DNA of 64,000 bases from Candidatus Nitrosopumilus sp. (GTDB taxonomy: Archaea > Thermoproteota > Nitrososphaeria > Nitrososphaerales > Nitrosopumilaceae): assembly GCA_025699075.1 (NCBI GenBank), contig JAILWG010000006.1, positions 35,739 through 99,738 of the forward strand, read 5' to 3'. Below are positions 49,110-56,084 of the stretch, one piece after another. A model generated the notes under the pieces. That model had not been told where the DNA came from and did not search any database. It saw nothing but the letters and a program-made list of their open reading frames with translations. Positions within the stretch are counted from its first letter, which is position 1. The number at the start of each line of letters is the position of its first letter. The position numbers were made by a program, and so were the translations under genes.

Positions 49110-49131
49110 AGAACAGAATTAAACGTTACTT

Positions 49132-49146
49132 ATACTGATCTCGTAC
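49132..49146 (+). promoter_or_regulatory. 15-nt motif ATACTGATCTCGTAC, copy 1
   Basis: Exact match to copy at 49628..49642. Confidence 0.55.
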
Positions 49147-49218
49147 ATTAGACCTAATTTTGGGGTTCAGAATAAAAGTTAAATAAGTCTCTGGCGCCAA
49201 AACGAGCAGGTAAACGGT

Positions 49219-49551
49219 ATGAATACAAAAATACTATTAGCAGCATCCTTACTAGCTGTCTTCACAATCGGAATCTATGCTGAAAATGCAGTAGCATTTG
49301 CACAGTACATGGGTAACGTCGGTAGTGAAGGACAAACCGGATCATACACATTAGAAGAAGCACTTGAGATTCAAGCAAGAAGAATCGCAGCAGCTGAAGC
49401 AAATCCATCTTCTGGTTCAGGAACTCCATATCTTGATGCCAGTGGTGTAGTTGGTGCAGCCGTTATTGCAGGTGCAGTATTCGGTGGTATTGCAGGAGCT
49501 TTCTTCATTAGAGGAAGATCTGGCAAATACGCAGCAATGGGAAGAGGATAA
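49219..49551 (+). CDS. Small membrane protein adjacent to AMO locus; candidate accessory AMO subunit
   Basis: 110 aa with signal peptide and C-terminal TM (GVVGAAVIAGAVFGGIAGAFFI). Confidence 0.75.
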   Translation: MNTKILLAASLLAVFTIGIYAENAVAFAQYMGNVGSEGQTGSYTLEEALEIQARRIAAAEANPSSGSGTPYLDASGVVGAAVIAGAVFGGIAGAFFIRGRSGKYAAMGRG

Positions 49552-49627
49552 ACAAACCCTCACTTTTCTCTTATTTTATTATCTATCCTTTAGTGGATAC
49601 TAAGAGAATTTTTTTCACCCTTGACTA

Positions 49628-49642
49628 ATACTGATCTCGTAC
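49628..49642 (+). promoter_or_regulatory. 15-nt motif ATACTGATCTCGTAC, copy 2
   Basis: Exact match to copy at 49132..49146. Confidence 0.55.
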
Positions 49643-49693
49643 TTTTTGATAATAAAAGAAATGTATATATCGCACAAATAGAGCCAAAATATT

Positions 49694-49963
49694 ATGATTC
49701 CTATCGTAGGTACTTTCCTAAGCATCCTGTCTTCAATTACAGGACAACTAGGACCAAACTATGATCCATTATTTTACGATGTAATGATTTACATCTTCGG
49801 AACCATTATGTTCACAATATTCCTTCTTGGAATTATCTCATTCTGGTTACGTGTACACGGATGGGCTTACAAAGACAACCGTGAAAGATGGGTTGATGAA
49901 TTAGACAGACACTTTGAAAGAGAAGGTATCGGTCTCATTCCAGACAACGGTAAATACTGGTAA
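49694..49963 (+). CDS. Small membrane protein adjacent to AMO locus; candidate accessory AMO subunit
   Basis: 89 aa; TM MIYIFGTIMFTIFLLGIISFWLRVHGW. Confidence 0.78.
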   Translation: MIPIVGTFLSILSSITGQLGPNYDPLFYDVMIYIFGTIMFTIFLLGIISFWLRVHGWAYKDNRERWVDELDRHFEREGIGLIPDNGKYW

Positions 49964-51048: not shown

Positions 51049-51618
51049 TTAGATTACTTGCCAGGGTCGTGTTGCAAAGGTAATGACATAACCGACACCG
51101 ATCATAATTGATTGATATGCGATGTTAGTGTATGGTATTTCTTTGAGTATTGGATCTCCTTCAACTACTACTGTTTGACCTGGACCAAGTCCTGGACCAA
51201 CTTGTGCAATGTTGAGTTGGGTGTGTACGTGGTATACACCTGCTTCAAGTGCTTTTGCAGACAATGAGTATTCGACGACAGCGTTACCTGGAATGTCAAA
51301 GACGTTTCCTGGTGGATCTCTTGCCAACATCTCCCATCTGTTACCTGCGTTGGTTGACTCTGTGAAAATGGATAGCCATCCTCTTAGGTCTCTTTCTACT
51401 AAACTAACTAAAGTTCCTTGAAGTGTCAAGGTTTCGCCAGTTTGTAGGGATTGTCTGTTGAAGGTTTCATCCTCAATTCTGATGAAACGACTCTGGAGTT
51501 GTGCTTGGACACCGTGTGCATCTGCAGTTGGAAGTACGGATTCAACCCAGTTGAAACCTAAGGTTCCTAGTGCAAGTACTACAGCAAGTCCAAATACGAA
51601 AATTCTTTTTTCGACCAT
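51049..51618 (-). CDS. amoB: Ammonia monooxygenase subunit B
   Basis: MVEKRIFVFGLAVVLALGTLGFNWVESVLPTADAHGVQAQLQSRFIRIEDE; thaumarchaeal AmoB. Confidence 0.95.
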   Translation of the reverse strand: MVEKRIFVFGLAVVLALGTLGFNWVESVLPTADAHGVQAQLQSRFIRIEDETFNRQSLQTGETLTLQGTLVSLVERDLRGWLSIFTESTNAGNRWEMLARDPPGNVFDIPGNAVVEYSLSAKALEAGVYHVHTQLNIAQVGPGLGPGQTVVVEGDPILKEIPYTNIAYQSIMIGVGYVITFATRPWQVI

Positions 51619-51858
51619 AGTTATCCCTAAAATGAGGAGATGAAACACGTCGTTATATGTTTTACCTTAACAACGAGGATCGATACTTTGCCACCGTTAA
51701 TCATTGATGTATAACATTGAAATCAGTAAAATAACAATCAAATTTAAATTATTTTAAACATGATAATATGTAATATTTTTAAATAATTTTTAATTTATTA
51801 TAAAAAATTAGGTAAAATATCTCTGATTTAGAACTCTTACTTTATATTCCGAATTCAC

Positions 51859-52434
51859 ATGATGGTGTACATGGCACAGATGCCCGCATTAATCCCAAAA
51901 GAAGTTGAGATCCAGAGACTAAAGAAAGTCTGGCTCATCGTTATTGCTATGGGTTCTACTGCAGCATCAGTCGAAGTTGATAACTTCGTTGATGGTTCTT
52001 TGCATCAAACCTCTATCAGAGATAGTGCATTTACACCAGCACACTGGTGGCTATACTCCCACTTCATCACATTACCACTTGGATGGGGAGCAGCAGCAAT
52101 CTATGATAGAAAAATTCCAGTTCTTAGAGGCCCAAATAATTCAATGAACACTGGATTGAAGATGACCATTCTTGGTTACCTTGCAACCATGTTTACAATT
52201 GGTGTCAATGAGATGTGGCATTTCTGGTTTGTAGAAGAAATCTTTGCAGTTCCAAATCACTGGATGTTTAACATGGGAGTCGTAGTGGCTTTCATGGGTG
52301 CACTTGCATACGTAGTTAGAGTATATGCTCGACTCGTAGAACTTGGTGCAGAAACTCCAGGAGAGAATCCATACGTTGCAGAGATGTACAAGATGGCCTT
52401 AGAAGGCAAATTGTACAGCAGAGCAATTCCTTAG
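51859..52434 (+). CDS. amoC: Ammonia monooxygenase subunit C
   Basis: MAQMPALIPKEVEIQRLKKVWLIVIAMGSTAASVEVDNFVDGSLHQTSIRDSAFTPAHWWLYSHF. Confidence 0.97.
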   Translation: MMVYMAQMPALIPKEVEIQRLKKVWLIVIAMGSTAASVEVDNFVDGSLHQTSIRDSAFTPAHWWLYSHFITLPLGWGAAAIYDRKIPVLRGPNNSMNTGLKMTILGYLATMFTIGVNEMWHFWFVEEIFAVPNHWMFNMGVVVAFMGALAYVVRVYARLVELGAETPGENPYVAEMYKMALEGKLYSRAIP

Positions 52435-52462: not shown

Positions 52463-52547
52463 TTATTATTTTTAAAATGACGTAGATCGTACAAGCCATA
52501 TCCGTTTAAGAAAGACTTAAAAGAATCTGAATTAGAATAATTCCAGA

Positions 52548-52910
52548 ATGACTCTTCCAAAAGGATTCGGTTCTGGCAGTGCTGGTGGTTCATCAAGCGC
52601 TGATGTAGAACGAATGATTGGAAAACGCGTTGAAAACATGACTGGTATGATCACAGTATCATTCTGGGCAGCAATATTGGCAACTTTTGGTGGTACTGCA
52701 GCAGGATATTTCTATTATCCATGGGCATATCCAACAGCAAGTGGTCACTTTGCATTCATCGTATTGACAATCATCATCACAATAGGTTACATCTTCTGTG
52801 TTAAAGTCATGGAAGAAGGTTCCAACAAAAACAGTAACGGTATACTTGCCGCTAGTGTTGCTGGTGCAACTGCATTTTGCTTGTTTGTATCACTATTCGT
52901 TGGTTGGTAA
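52548..52910 (+). CDS. amoX: AMO-associated subunit AmoX
   Basis: 120 aa MTLPKGFGSGSAGGSSSADVERMIGKRVENM between amoC and amoA. Confidence 0.9.
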   Translation: MTLPKGFGSGSAGGSSSADVERMIGKRVENMTGMITVSFWAAILATFGGTAAGYFYYPWAYPTASGHFAFIVLTIIITIGYIFCVKVMEEGSNKNSNGILAASVAGATAFCLFVSLFVGW

Positions 52911-53027
52911 TCGAAAGAAAACCCCTTAGACACTTCTTTTTCATTTTAATTTTAAATAATTTTATTCTGACGTGTTTTTTTGATATTCTACCAAGTCCAA
53001 AATAACGATCTTCATCACACTCTAAAA

Positions 53028-53036
53028 TTTTATATA
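53028..53036 (+). promoter_or_regulatory. TATA box of amoA
   Basis: tttatata about 25 nt upstream of the amoA ATG, consistent with a (near) leaderless transcript. Confidence 0.5.
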
Positions 53037-53058: not shown

Positions 53059-53709
53059 ATGGTCTGGTTAAGACGATGTACACACTACTTATTCATAGTA
53101 GTAGTTGCAGTTAACTCAACACTGTTAACAATTAATGCAGGAGACTACATCTTCTACACTGACTGGGCTTGGACTTCGTACACGGTATTCTCAATATCGC
53201 AAACGTTGATGCTTATTGTAGGTGCAACATATTACCTAACATTTACAGGCGTTCCAGGCACAGCAACGTACTACGCTCTAATTATGACAGTATACACATG
53301 GATAGCCAAAGCCGCATGGTTTTCACTCGGTTATCCATATGACTTCATTGTAGTTCCAGTTTGGTTACCATCAGCAATGCTGTTGGACTTAGTATACTGG
53401 GCAACAAAGAAGAACAAGCACTCCTTGATACTGTTTGGCGGCGTACTAGTAGGAATGTCATTACCATTGTTCAACATGGTGAACCTGATAACAGTAGCAG
53501 ACCCACTAGAGACGGCATTCAAATATCCAAGACCAACATTGCCACCATATATGACACCAATCGAACCGCAAGTAGGTAAGTTCTATAACAGCCCAGTTGC
53601 TCTCGGTGCAGGTGCAGGTGCAGTATTGGCATGTACATTTGCAGCCTTAGGTTGTAAATTGAACACTTGGACATACAGATGGATGGCCGCCTGGTCAAAG
53701 TGGGACTAA
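53059..53709 (+). CDS. amoA: Ammonia monooxygenase subunit A
   Basis: 216 aa MVWLRRCTHYLFIVVVAVNSTLLTINAGDYIFYTDWAWTSY; archaeal AmoA. Confidence 0.98.
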   Translation: MVWLRRCTHYLFIVVVAVNSTLLTINAGDYIFYTDWAWTSYTVFSISQTLMLIVGATYYLTFTGVPGTATYYALIMTVYTWIAKAAWFSLGYPYDFIVVPVWLPSAMLLDLVYWATKKNKHSLILFGGVLVGMSLPLFNMVNLITVADPLETAFKYPRPTLPPYMTPIEPQVGKFYNSPVALGAGAGAVLACTFAALGCKLNTWTYRWMAAWSKWD

Positions 53710-53912: not shown

Positions 53913-54773
53913 CTAATAATTTTTAATCAATAATTCAAAGTGTCCAGTTCGTTTTTTAGAATTTGAATTGATTGAGCGATTAGCTTGAATTTTATTTATT
54001 TTCCAGGGTTTGTCTGAGAAAATCTTTGCAACTTCTTCTGAATCAGAATTTGACAATAAAACTTTGCATCCTTTAGAATCCAATTTTAAACAAAGCTCAG
54101 ATAATCTATGAAGATCATCATATGTGAAACTCTTATTTGTATAACTTGTAAAGTTGGCAGTATCACTAACTGGTTGGTATGGAGGATCAAAGTAAACTAG
54201 ATCTCCTTTTTTAGCATCTCGTAGAACTGATTCAAAATCCCTGCATTTTATTGCAACTTTGCTGGAGTGTAAAATGGCACTAACTGAGCGTAAATTATCC
54301 TCATTTACAATATTGGGATTTGTGTATCTGCCTAGAGGGACATTGAATTTTCCTTTGCTGTTTACTCTATACAATCCATTAAAGCAGGTTCTATTCAGAA
54401 ATAACAATCTTGATGTTTTTTCAATCTCACTTCTTGGATTGGATTCCCTGACTGAGTAATAGTATGTCTTTGAATCTTTTTGATAGTTTTTTTCGTGATT
54501 TCTCAGTGATGAGATTAACTCATCAATTCTGTCTCTAATTGTAATATATGTCAAAACAAGATCAGAGTTCAAATCCGAGATACTGCATTTTTGAGCATTT
54601 CTCTCAGTAAGCATATGGAACAGTAATGCCCCTCCTCCTAGAAATGGCTCATAATAGGTCCCAAAGGATTTTGGGAGATTCTCATTTAGAATGGGAATTA
54701 GTTGACGTTTTCCACCTGCCCACTTTACGAATGGTTTTGGGGCAGTTGCAATCTGTCGATAAAGTTGCTTCAA
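53913..54773 (-). CDS. Dam-family adenine-N6 DNA methyltransferase
   Basis: KPFVKWAGGKRQLIPIL, YYEPFLGGGALLF, DLVYFDPPYQPVSDTANFTSY. Confidence 0.92.
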   Translation of the reverse strand: MKQLYRQIATAPKPFVKWAGGKRQLIPILNENLPKSFGTYYEPFLGGGALLFHMLTERNAQKCSISDLNSDLVLTYITIRDRIDELISSLRNHEKNYQKDSKTYYYSVRESNPRSEIEKTSRLLFLNRTCFNGLYRVNSKGKFNVPLGRYTNPNIVNEDNLRSVSAILHSSKVAIKCRDFESVLRDAKKGDLVYFDPPYQPVSDTANFTSYTNKSFTYDDLHRLSELCLKLDSKGCKVLLSNSDSEEVAKIFSDKPWKINKIQANRSINSNSKKRTGHFELLIKNY

Positions 54774-54899
54774 TGATTGCTATTACAAAAATCATTAACT
54801 GTGCTTTAGATAAAATTATTTGATCTGGAACTAACTTTTTCCTAGTCTCACAATAGCTTAAATACAAATTTCGTAAAATGGTGATTTAGAAAATAGAAA

Positions 54900-55683: not shown

Positions 55684-55830
55684 CTATTTTTTTAGTTTCT
55701 TTGTTAGAACTTCCCCTACTATTTCAGAAAAGGACACACTACGATTTTCTTTTTGAATTTTTTCAGATTGAATTTTTCTTAGTTTTGTAATCAAATCATC
55801 ATCTAACACTAATGTTATTCTTTTACCCAT
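55684..55830 (-). CDS. Ribbon-helix-helix (CopG-like) small regulator
   Basis: MGKRITLVLDDDLITKLRKIQSEKIQKENRSVSFSEIVGEVLTKKL. Confidence 0.7.
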   Translation of the reverse strand: MGKRITLVLDDDLITKLRKIQSEKIQKENRSVSFSEIVGEVLTKKLKK

Positions 55831-55919
55831 ACCTCCCATTCTATCATGGATATAAAAATCTGAAATTATGGTTATGTTGCTGATCTCAGACACCTTCCTT
55901 GATTCATAAAGAACCCAAA

Positions 55920-56084
55920 ATGAGAATTTTTGGAAGAGATATGGACGAGAAGACAATGGCACAGATTATGCAAGAAGAAAAAGAAAAATTATTGGCAGAA
56001 ATTAACGAGAAAATCAAAAAGAAAAAAGCACTTATGAATACGGACGAACCTGAGACAGGATTTCAGAATTTTATAAGAAAGTGA
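55920..56084 (+). CDS. Small coiled protein, copy A of a duplicated mini-gene
   Basis: MRIFGRDMDEKTMAQIMQEEKEKLLAEINEKIKKKKALMNTDEPETGFQNFIRK. Confidence 0.65.
   Translation: MRIFGRDMDEKTMAQIMQEEKEKLLAEINEKIKKKKALMNTDEPETGFQNFIRK

Follow-up and report, generated by a model that had tools for sequence, protein, structure and literature searches.

A conserved GATC-core promoter element at five AMO genes of Nitrosopumilaceae

Activator sites in archaea occur upstream of BRE/TATA, and in bacteria, several promoters are controlled through Dam and GATC sites, e.g., pap and agn43. In some of the ocean's most abundant organisms, transcription of the archaeal AMO genes ranks among the highest of all genes. 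In the soil AOA N. viennensis, amoA, B, C, X, Y, and Z are co-regulated, and the same study reported no obvious promoter motif shared by all six (Hodgskiss et al., 2023, PMC10030591). In N. maritimus, amoA, B, C, X, and Y are highly expressed, with amoZ expression lower than that of the other AMO genes (PMC10030591). No cis-regulatory element or regulator of archaeal AMO genes was found described in the open-licence literature searched, although an earlier account elsewhere is possible.

The window analyzed here is a stretch of 64,000 nucleotides from Candidatus Nitrosopumilus sp. (contig JAILWG010000006.1), which has the same AMO subunit genes in the same gene order as those described by Hodgskiss et al. 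(2023, PMC10030591):

49219 to 49551, plus strand: amoZ, 110 aa (synteny and size)
49694 to 49963, plus strand: amoY, 89 aa (synteny and size)
51049 to 51618, minus strand: amoB (Pfam PF04744)
51874 to 52434, plus strand: amoC, the only AMO gene without the element described below
52548 to 52910, plus strand: amoX (synteny)
53059 to 53709, plus strand: amoA (Pfam PF12942)

The two small membrane-protein genes that the original prediction had placed beside AMO are identified as amoZ and amoY by their order, size, and distance to amoB, which are as described for Nitrosopumilaceae (PMC10030591). In this family, amoZ lies directly before amoY, 1–2 genes from amoABCX, and amoY is present in 131 of 151 genomes. 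No Pfam or NCBIfam model matched the amoZ or amoY products.

The prediction started from an exact 15-mer, ATACTGATCTCGTAC, shared by the amoZ and amoY promoters. Both copies were confirmed: the one at 49132–49146 ends 72 nt before the amoZ ATG, and the one at 49628–49642 ends 51 nt before that of amoY. A third exact copy is absent from the whole assembly (1,436,504 bases searched), where the next-best matches are two sites with two mismatches each. Chance had been called very unlikely as the source of such a pair; when the window was shuffled 150 times with its dinucleotides preserved, 4 of the shuffled sequences contained a compositionally complex exact 15-mer pair within 500 nt, so that the pair is indeed unlikely (approximately 3% per window) but not decisive by itself. 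Taken alone, it is a lead, and conservation decides the reality of the element. The 11-mer TGATCTCGTAC has 41 occurrences in 22 genomes of the genus (151 whole genomes searched), nearly all of them, to judge from position, at amoY/amoZ promoters; the matches elsewhere, about four, equal the rate of a reversed control pattern. The genome-wide search proposed with the prediction thus found the exact 15-mer only at the two AMO promoters and the 11-mer nearly confined to amoY/amoZ. The full 15-mer is the amoY/amoZ form, and the best-preserved one, of a wider element; it is found in the source genus and a few related genera.

What is shared more widely is a GATC core, which stands upstream of five of the six AMO genes:

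49132 to 49146, plus strand: amoZ element ATACTGATCTCGTAC, GATC at 49137–49140, 41 bp upstream of TATA; GATC in 22/22 genus genomes
49628 to 49642, plus strand: amoY element ATACTGATCTCGTAC, GATC at 49633–49636, 29 bp upstream of TATA; 22/22 genus genomes and most genera
51672 to 51684, minus strand: amoB element ATCGATCCTCGTT, GATC at 51678–51681, 20 bp upstream of TATA; 16/16 genus genomes
52479 to 52492, minus strand: inverted amoX element, which reads GTACGATCTACGTC on this strand, GATC at 52485–52488, 31 bp upstream of TATA; 14/14 genus genomes
53004 to 53016, plus strand: amoA element AACGATCTTCATC, GATC at 53007–53010, 22 bp upstream of TATA; 14/14 genus genomes

The weaker relative of the 15-mer reported near 52483 is real and is the amoX copy: GATCGTAC at 52485–52492, the core of which reads CGATCTACGT on the opposite strand, the plus-strand reading of the site at 52479 being GACGTAGATCGTAC. 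The sites at amoA and amoB had been missed. The genus counts above hold for positions −35 to −100, where GATC is found at 0/14 amoC, 0/16 serS, 1/22 dhh, and 1/12 orf128 promoters. When all 256 tetramers were counted in the stretch 12–48 bp before TATA, with one vote per genus and 13–20 genera, GATC ranked first at amoZ, amoY, amoX, amoA, and amoB and 223rd at amoC; the genus votes are related and not fully independent, but that five separate promoters agree on one tetramer is independent, and this is the main result. At amoC, the GATC element was found in 0 of 46 promoters.

Conservation extends beyond the core. Once the amoX copy is inverted, the sites have in common roughly [C/T]GATC[T/C](N)C(G/A)T, in Nitrosopumilaceae [C/T]GATC[T/C]..CGT, and the invariant blocks run past GATC into the flanks (CTGATCTCG, TAGATCG, and CGATCTTCATC). 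For amoY and amoZ, about 110 Nitrosopumilaceae loci were compared. In the genus, TGATCTCG is almost invariant at amoZ, while the sequence separating the element from the TATA block changes from genome to genome. In other genera, amoY has CTGATCTCG, GCGATC, or GTGATC with the same spacing, and several of these genera keep CGGATCTCGTAC at amoZ. Similarly, AGATCG at amoX is kept across further genera. Orientation, flanks, and spacing vary between the AMO genes. At orthologous promoters in Nitrosopumilaceae, the GATC element is kept at a level above background. Of the shared AMO regulatory element first suggested, a conserved, promoter-proximal element common to AMO genes including amoX stands; however, its core is GATC with semi-conserved flanks and not the 15-mer, amoC is without it, and radA has it.

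Two further observations concern single copies. The amoZ element abuts the promoter of the divergent rpsO (ribosomal protein S15) at 49110–49131 of the window and may affect rpsO too. In one other genome of the genus (L072, 4671–7001), a 2.3-kb insertion lies between the GATC element and the core promoter of amoY; it contains a 390-aa transposase-like gene with, as judged by eye, a SWIM-type zinc motif and a DDE-like region. The insertion may be a natural test of the element or an assembly matter.

The position of the element is constrained relative to the core promoter, for which the following TATA boxes were taken:

49178 to 49185, plus strand: amoZ TATA box GTTAAATA, a conserved core promoter block behind a purine/A-rich BRE
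49662 to 49669, plus strand: amoY TATA box TGTATATA within the nearly invariant block AGAAATGTATATATCGC
51654 to 51661, minus strand: amoB TATA box AACATATA (conservation)
52516 to 52523, plus strand: amoX TATA box CTTAAAAG (conservation)
53029 to 53036, plus strand: amoA TATA box TTTATATA (conservation)

With one definition of an 8-bp TATA box applied throughout, the modal distances from GATC are 20 bp at amoB, 22 bp at amoA (in 43 of the sampled promoters), 29 bp at amoY, 30 bp at amoX (31 bp in the window), and 41 bp at amoZ (next 42 bp), all with tight distributions. Unsupervised training of a TATA matrix drifted and was dropped, and a strict TATA regular expression yielded too few promoters. 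The five spacings, together with that of radA (22 bp), may form a ladder of approximately 10 bp, such as a protein working from a single side of the helix would produce, but the statistical support is weak (p 0.02–0.07, depending on the period tested).

GATC is also moderately enriched at promoters in general. Genome-wide, 139 GATCs were observed at −42 to −80 against approximately 86 expected (z 4.5), and GATC is the sole G/C-containing tetramer among the most promoter-biased ones. The extended pattern, which each of the five AMO genes has, shows no general excess (22 in promoters against 19 expected). Among the 20 genes of a control region (up to 81 loci), the only conserved noncoding GATC was at radA, where CGATC is conserved 22 bp before TATA, a spacing as at amoA (G000:C3, about 108660–108720; L227–L304). 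The matches at control genes 626 and 739 lie in conserved coding sequence and were rejected as promoter sites. A set of 50 genes in which GATC precedes a TATA-like box was likewise discarded, the number being about what chance gives; it included a nirK-like oxidase gene, at which GATC is not conserved. The element is thus far above the background rate at AMO genes, yet it is not exclusive to them, and it does not mark an AMO-specific regulon, being absent from amoC (0/46) and found at an unrelated promoter (radA), with GATC also in excess genome-wide.

Beside amoA lies a gene for a methyltransferase whose expected target is GATC:

53913 to 54773, minus strand: Dam-family (GATC type) N6-adenine DNA methyltransferase gene (DpnM 2dpm E=3e-67; EcoDam E=1e-36)
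54816 to 54830, minus strand: GATC (54822–54825) in the leader/promoter region of this gene, 12/12 genus genomes

The product matches the Dam family model and GATC-specific enzymes over its full length; of the enzymes with solved structures, DpnM and E. coli Dam, both acting on GATC, come closest to it. Dam-family genes were found in 136/151 Nitrosopumilaceae genomes, in all 22 genera (93/96 of the high-quality genomes), and in 6/6 Nitrososphaeraceae, 0/6 Nitrosocaldaceae, and 0/2 genomes of a further AOA family. Nearly all loci long enough to show it have dam adjoining amoA, and at the compared loci, its flanking genes are AMO genes; the enzyme may be solitary. In Nitrosarchaeum BD3, 9446 of 9618 GATC sites (98.2%) carry m6A, and the GATC-type enzyme has no restriction partner (PMC6329791); the genome of BD3 has dam next to amoA and the GATCs of amoX and amoA. 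It is therefore very probable that the AMO promoter GATCs are either methylated in vivo or shielded by a protein, and the element may be modulated by methylation. Two types of dam leader, each with a conserved GATC, were seen, i.e., TTGTGATCTTTTATTG when dam follows amoA in tandem and AGATCAAAT when the two are convergent (L057–L135); the GATC lies at or after the likely transcription start, which suggests autoregulation. Near dam, at 55684–55920 of the window, a small protein has by eye the look of a ribbon-helix-helix DNA-binding protein and no Pfam match.

The element is a Nitrosopumilaceae feature. At amoA and amoX, it is absent in Nitrososphaeraceae, a third AOA family, and Nitrosocaldaceae (groups f8, f3, and f2, presumed to be these families from gene content), a range that fits the published lack of a common motif in N. 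viennensis (PMC10030591); compared with the promoters of that species, the element here belongs to Nitrosopumilaceae and to five genes. Within the family, most or all AMO genes are without it in genera g5, g7, g8, g16, and g21, which presumably express AMO all the same; g5, g8, and g21 have Dam and lack sites at most AMO genes.

Taken together, this is a real, conserved promoter element of five Nitrosopumilaceae AMO genes, previously undescribed in the literature searched. That the amoY/amoZ 15-mer arose by accident or from recent duplication of a promoter segment would account for the pair, which some 3% of shuffled windows can match; yet the surroundings of the two copies are completely different, both copies are kept across the genus although adjacent bases turn over, and the core recurs at three further AMO genes. 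Such an origin is extremely improbable and is ruled out by the conservation. We consider it probable that the element is a promoter-proximal cis-regulatory site, most likely for a sequence-specific activator, with a GATC core that can be methylated. The conserved flanks indicate a protein-binding site, probably that of an activator, and the first rank of GATC at five of six AMO genes and the tight spacing agree with this, as do the published co-regulation of the AMO genes in N. viennensis and the high expression of amoA, B, C, X, and Y in N. maritimus (PMC10030591). Against it stand the lower expression of amoZ in N. maritimus despite the same site in the genus (PMC10030591), the missing element at the core subunit gene amoC, its presence at radA, which means that the signal would not be ammonia-specific, the five genera that presumably express AMO without it, and the unequal orientation, flanks, and spacing between genes. 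An activator so placed would tie together five separately transcribed AMO subunit genes and, bound upstream of BRE/TATA at a distance that is constant within each gene (20 bp at amoB, 22 bp at amoA, 29 bp at amoY, 30–31 bp at amoX, and 41–42 bp at amoZ), would help TBP/TFB recruitment from 20–42 bp upstream; its GATC core would probably be N6-methylated in vivo, and methylation might modulate binding of the factor. Archaeal activator sites resemble the element in being short, 20–40 bp upstream of TATA, gene-specific in spacing, and found in either orientation; a GATC core is not known to us from any characterized archaeal activator.

Alternatively, the sites could be kept for N6-adenine methylation by the Dam beside amoA, with the methylation state (full, hemi after replication, or protein-protected) setting amo promoter activity as at Dam sites of some bacterial promoters. 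The five sites share no core other than GATC, the Dam gene, closest to DpnM and EcoDam, is widespread in the family and adjoins amoA in almost all loci, the leader of dam has its own conserved GATC, and BD3 GATCs are methylated with no restriction partner (PMC6329791). Nearly all of them are methylated, however, so methylation alone would carry little site-specific information; a bare methylation target needs no conserved flanks, and Dam occurs in genera g5, g8, and g21 without sites at most AMO genes. The presence of Dam by itself also fails as the reason for the sites, since Nitrososphaeraceae have Dam in 6/6 genomes and no such sites at amoA/amoX. We regard this account as unlikely, the flanks and the Nitrososphaeraceae indicating that a binding protein, not methylation alone, would keep the element. 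Less likely still is a general role, in which GATC is common upstream in strong Nitrosopumilaceae promoters through a general factor or architecture with no link to ammonia oxidation: the genome-wide excess and the matching spacing at radA agree with it, but in the 20-gene control region, radA was the only gene with a conserved noncoding GATC, the nirK-like gene has none that is conserved and five of six AMO genes do, and the extended form is not promoter-enriched.

An activator site and Dam could also act together, and we tentatively raise, as a doubtful extension, methylation-sensitive AMO control, in which a GATC-binding factor and Dam would compete for the same sites and couple amo expression to adenine methylation, and possibly to replication too, as dam and radA carry GATC sites. 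The likeness to pap and agn43 is a GATC in the regulatory region of a genome with a possibly solitary Dam-type methyltransferase; the differences are the archaeal promoter type, the conserved flanks, and the single GATC per promoter. If true, archaea would have a regulon that responds to Dam and serves a key nitrogen-cycle enzyme in marine and freshwater Nitrosopumilaceae. The defined site offers a bait for isolating the regulator together with a set of target genes, and long-read data that already exist would show how it relates to GATC methylation; with Dam beside amoA, control of archaeal AMO therefore becomes directly testable.

The control promoters of nirK-like multicopper oxidases have no conserved GATC; they conserve a wholly different palindrome, AGTTAGCCTAGGCTAACT. 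A near-perfect palindrome, AAAGTTAGCCTAGGCTAACTTT, overlaps TATA in these promoters family-wide (L307–L336; G000:C2, about 290040–290130), often with a second half-site upstream, and may resemble DtxR/IdeR-type boxes. Among the 50 discarded genes is also a 1091-aa multicopper oxidase (G000:C3:192071–195343; L184, L337) whose C-terminal part is beta-propeller-like; of the 70 other Nitrosopumilaceae genomes searched, only 3 have a relative of nearly full length.
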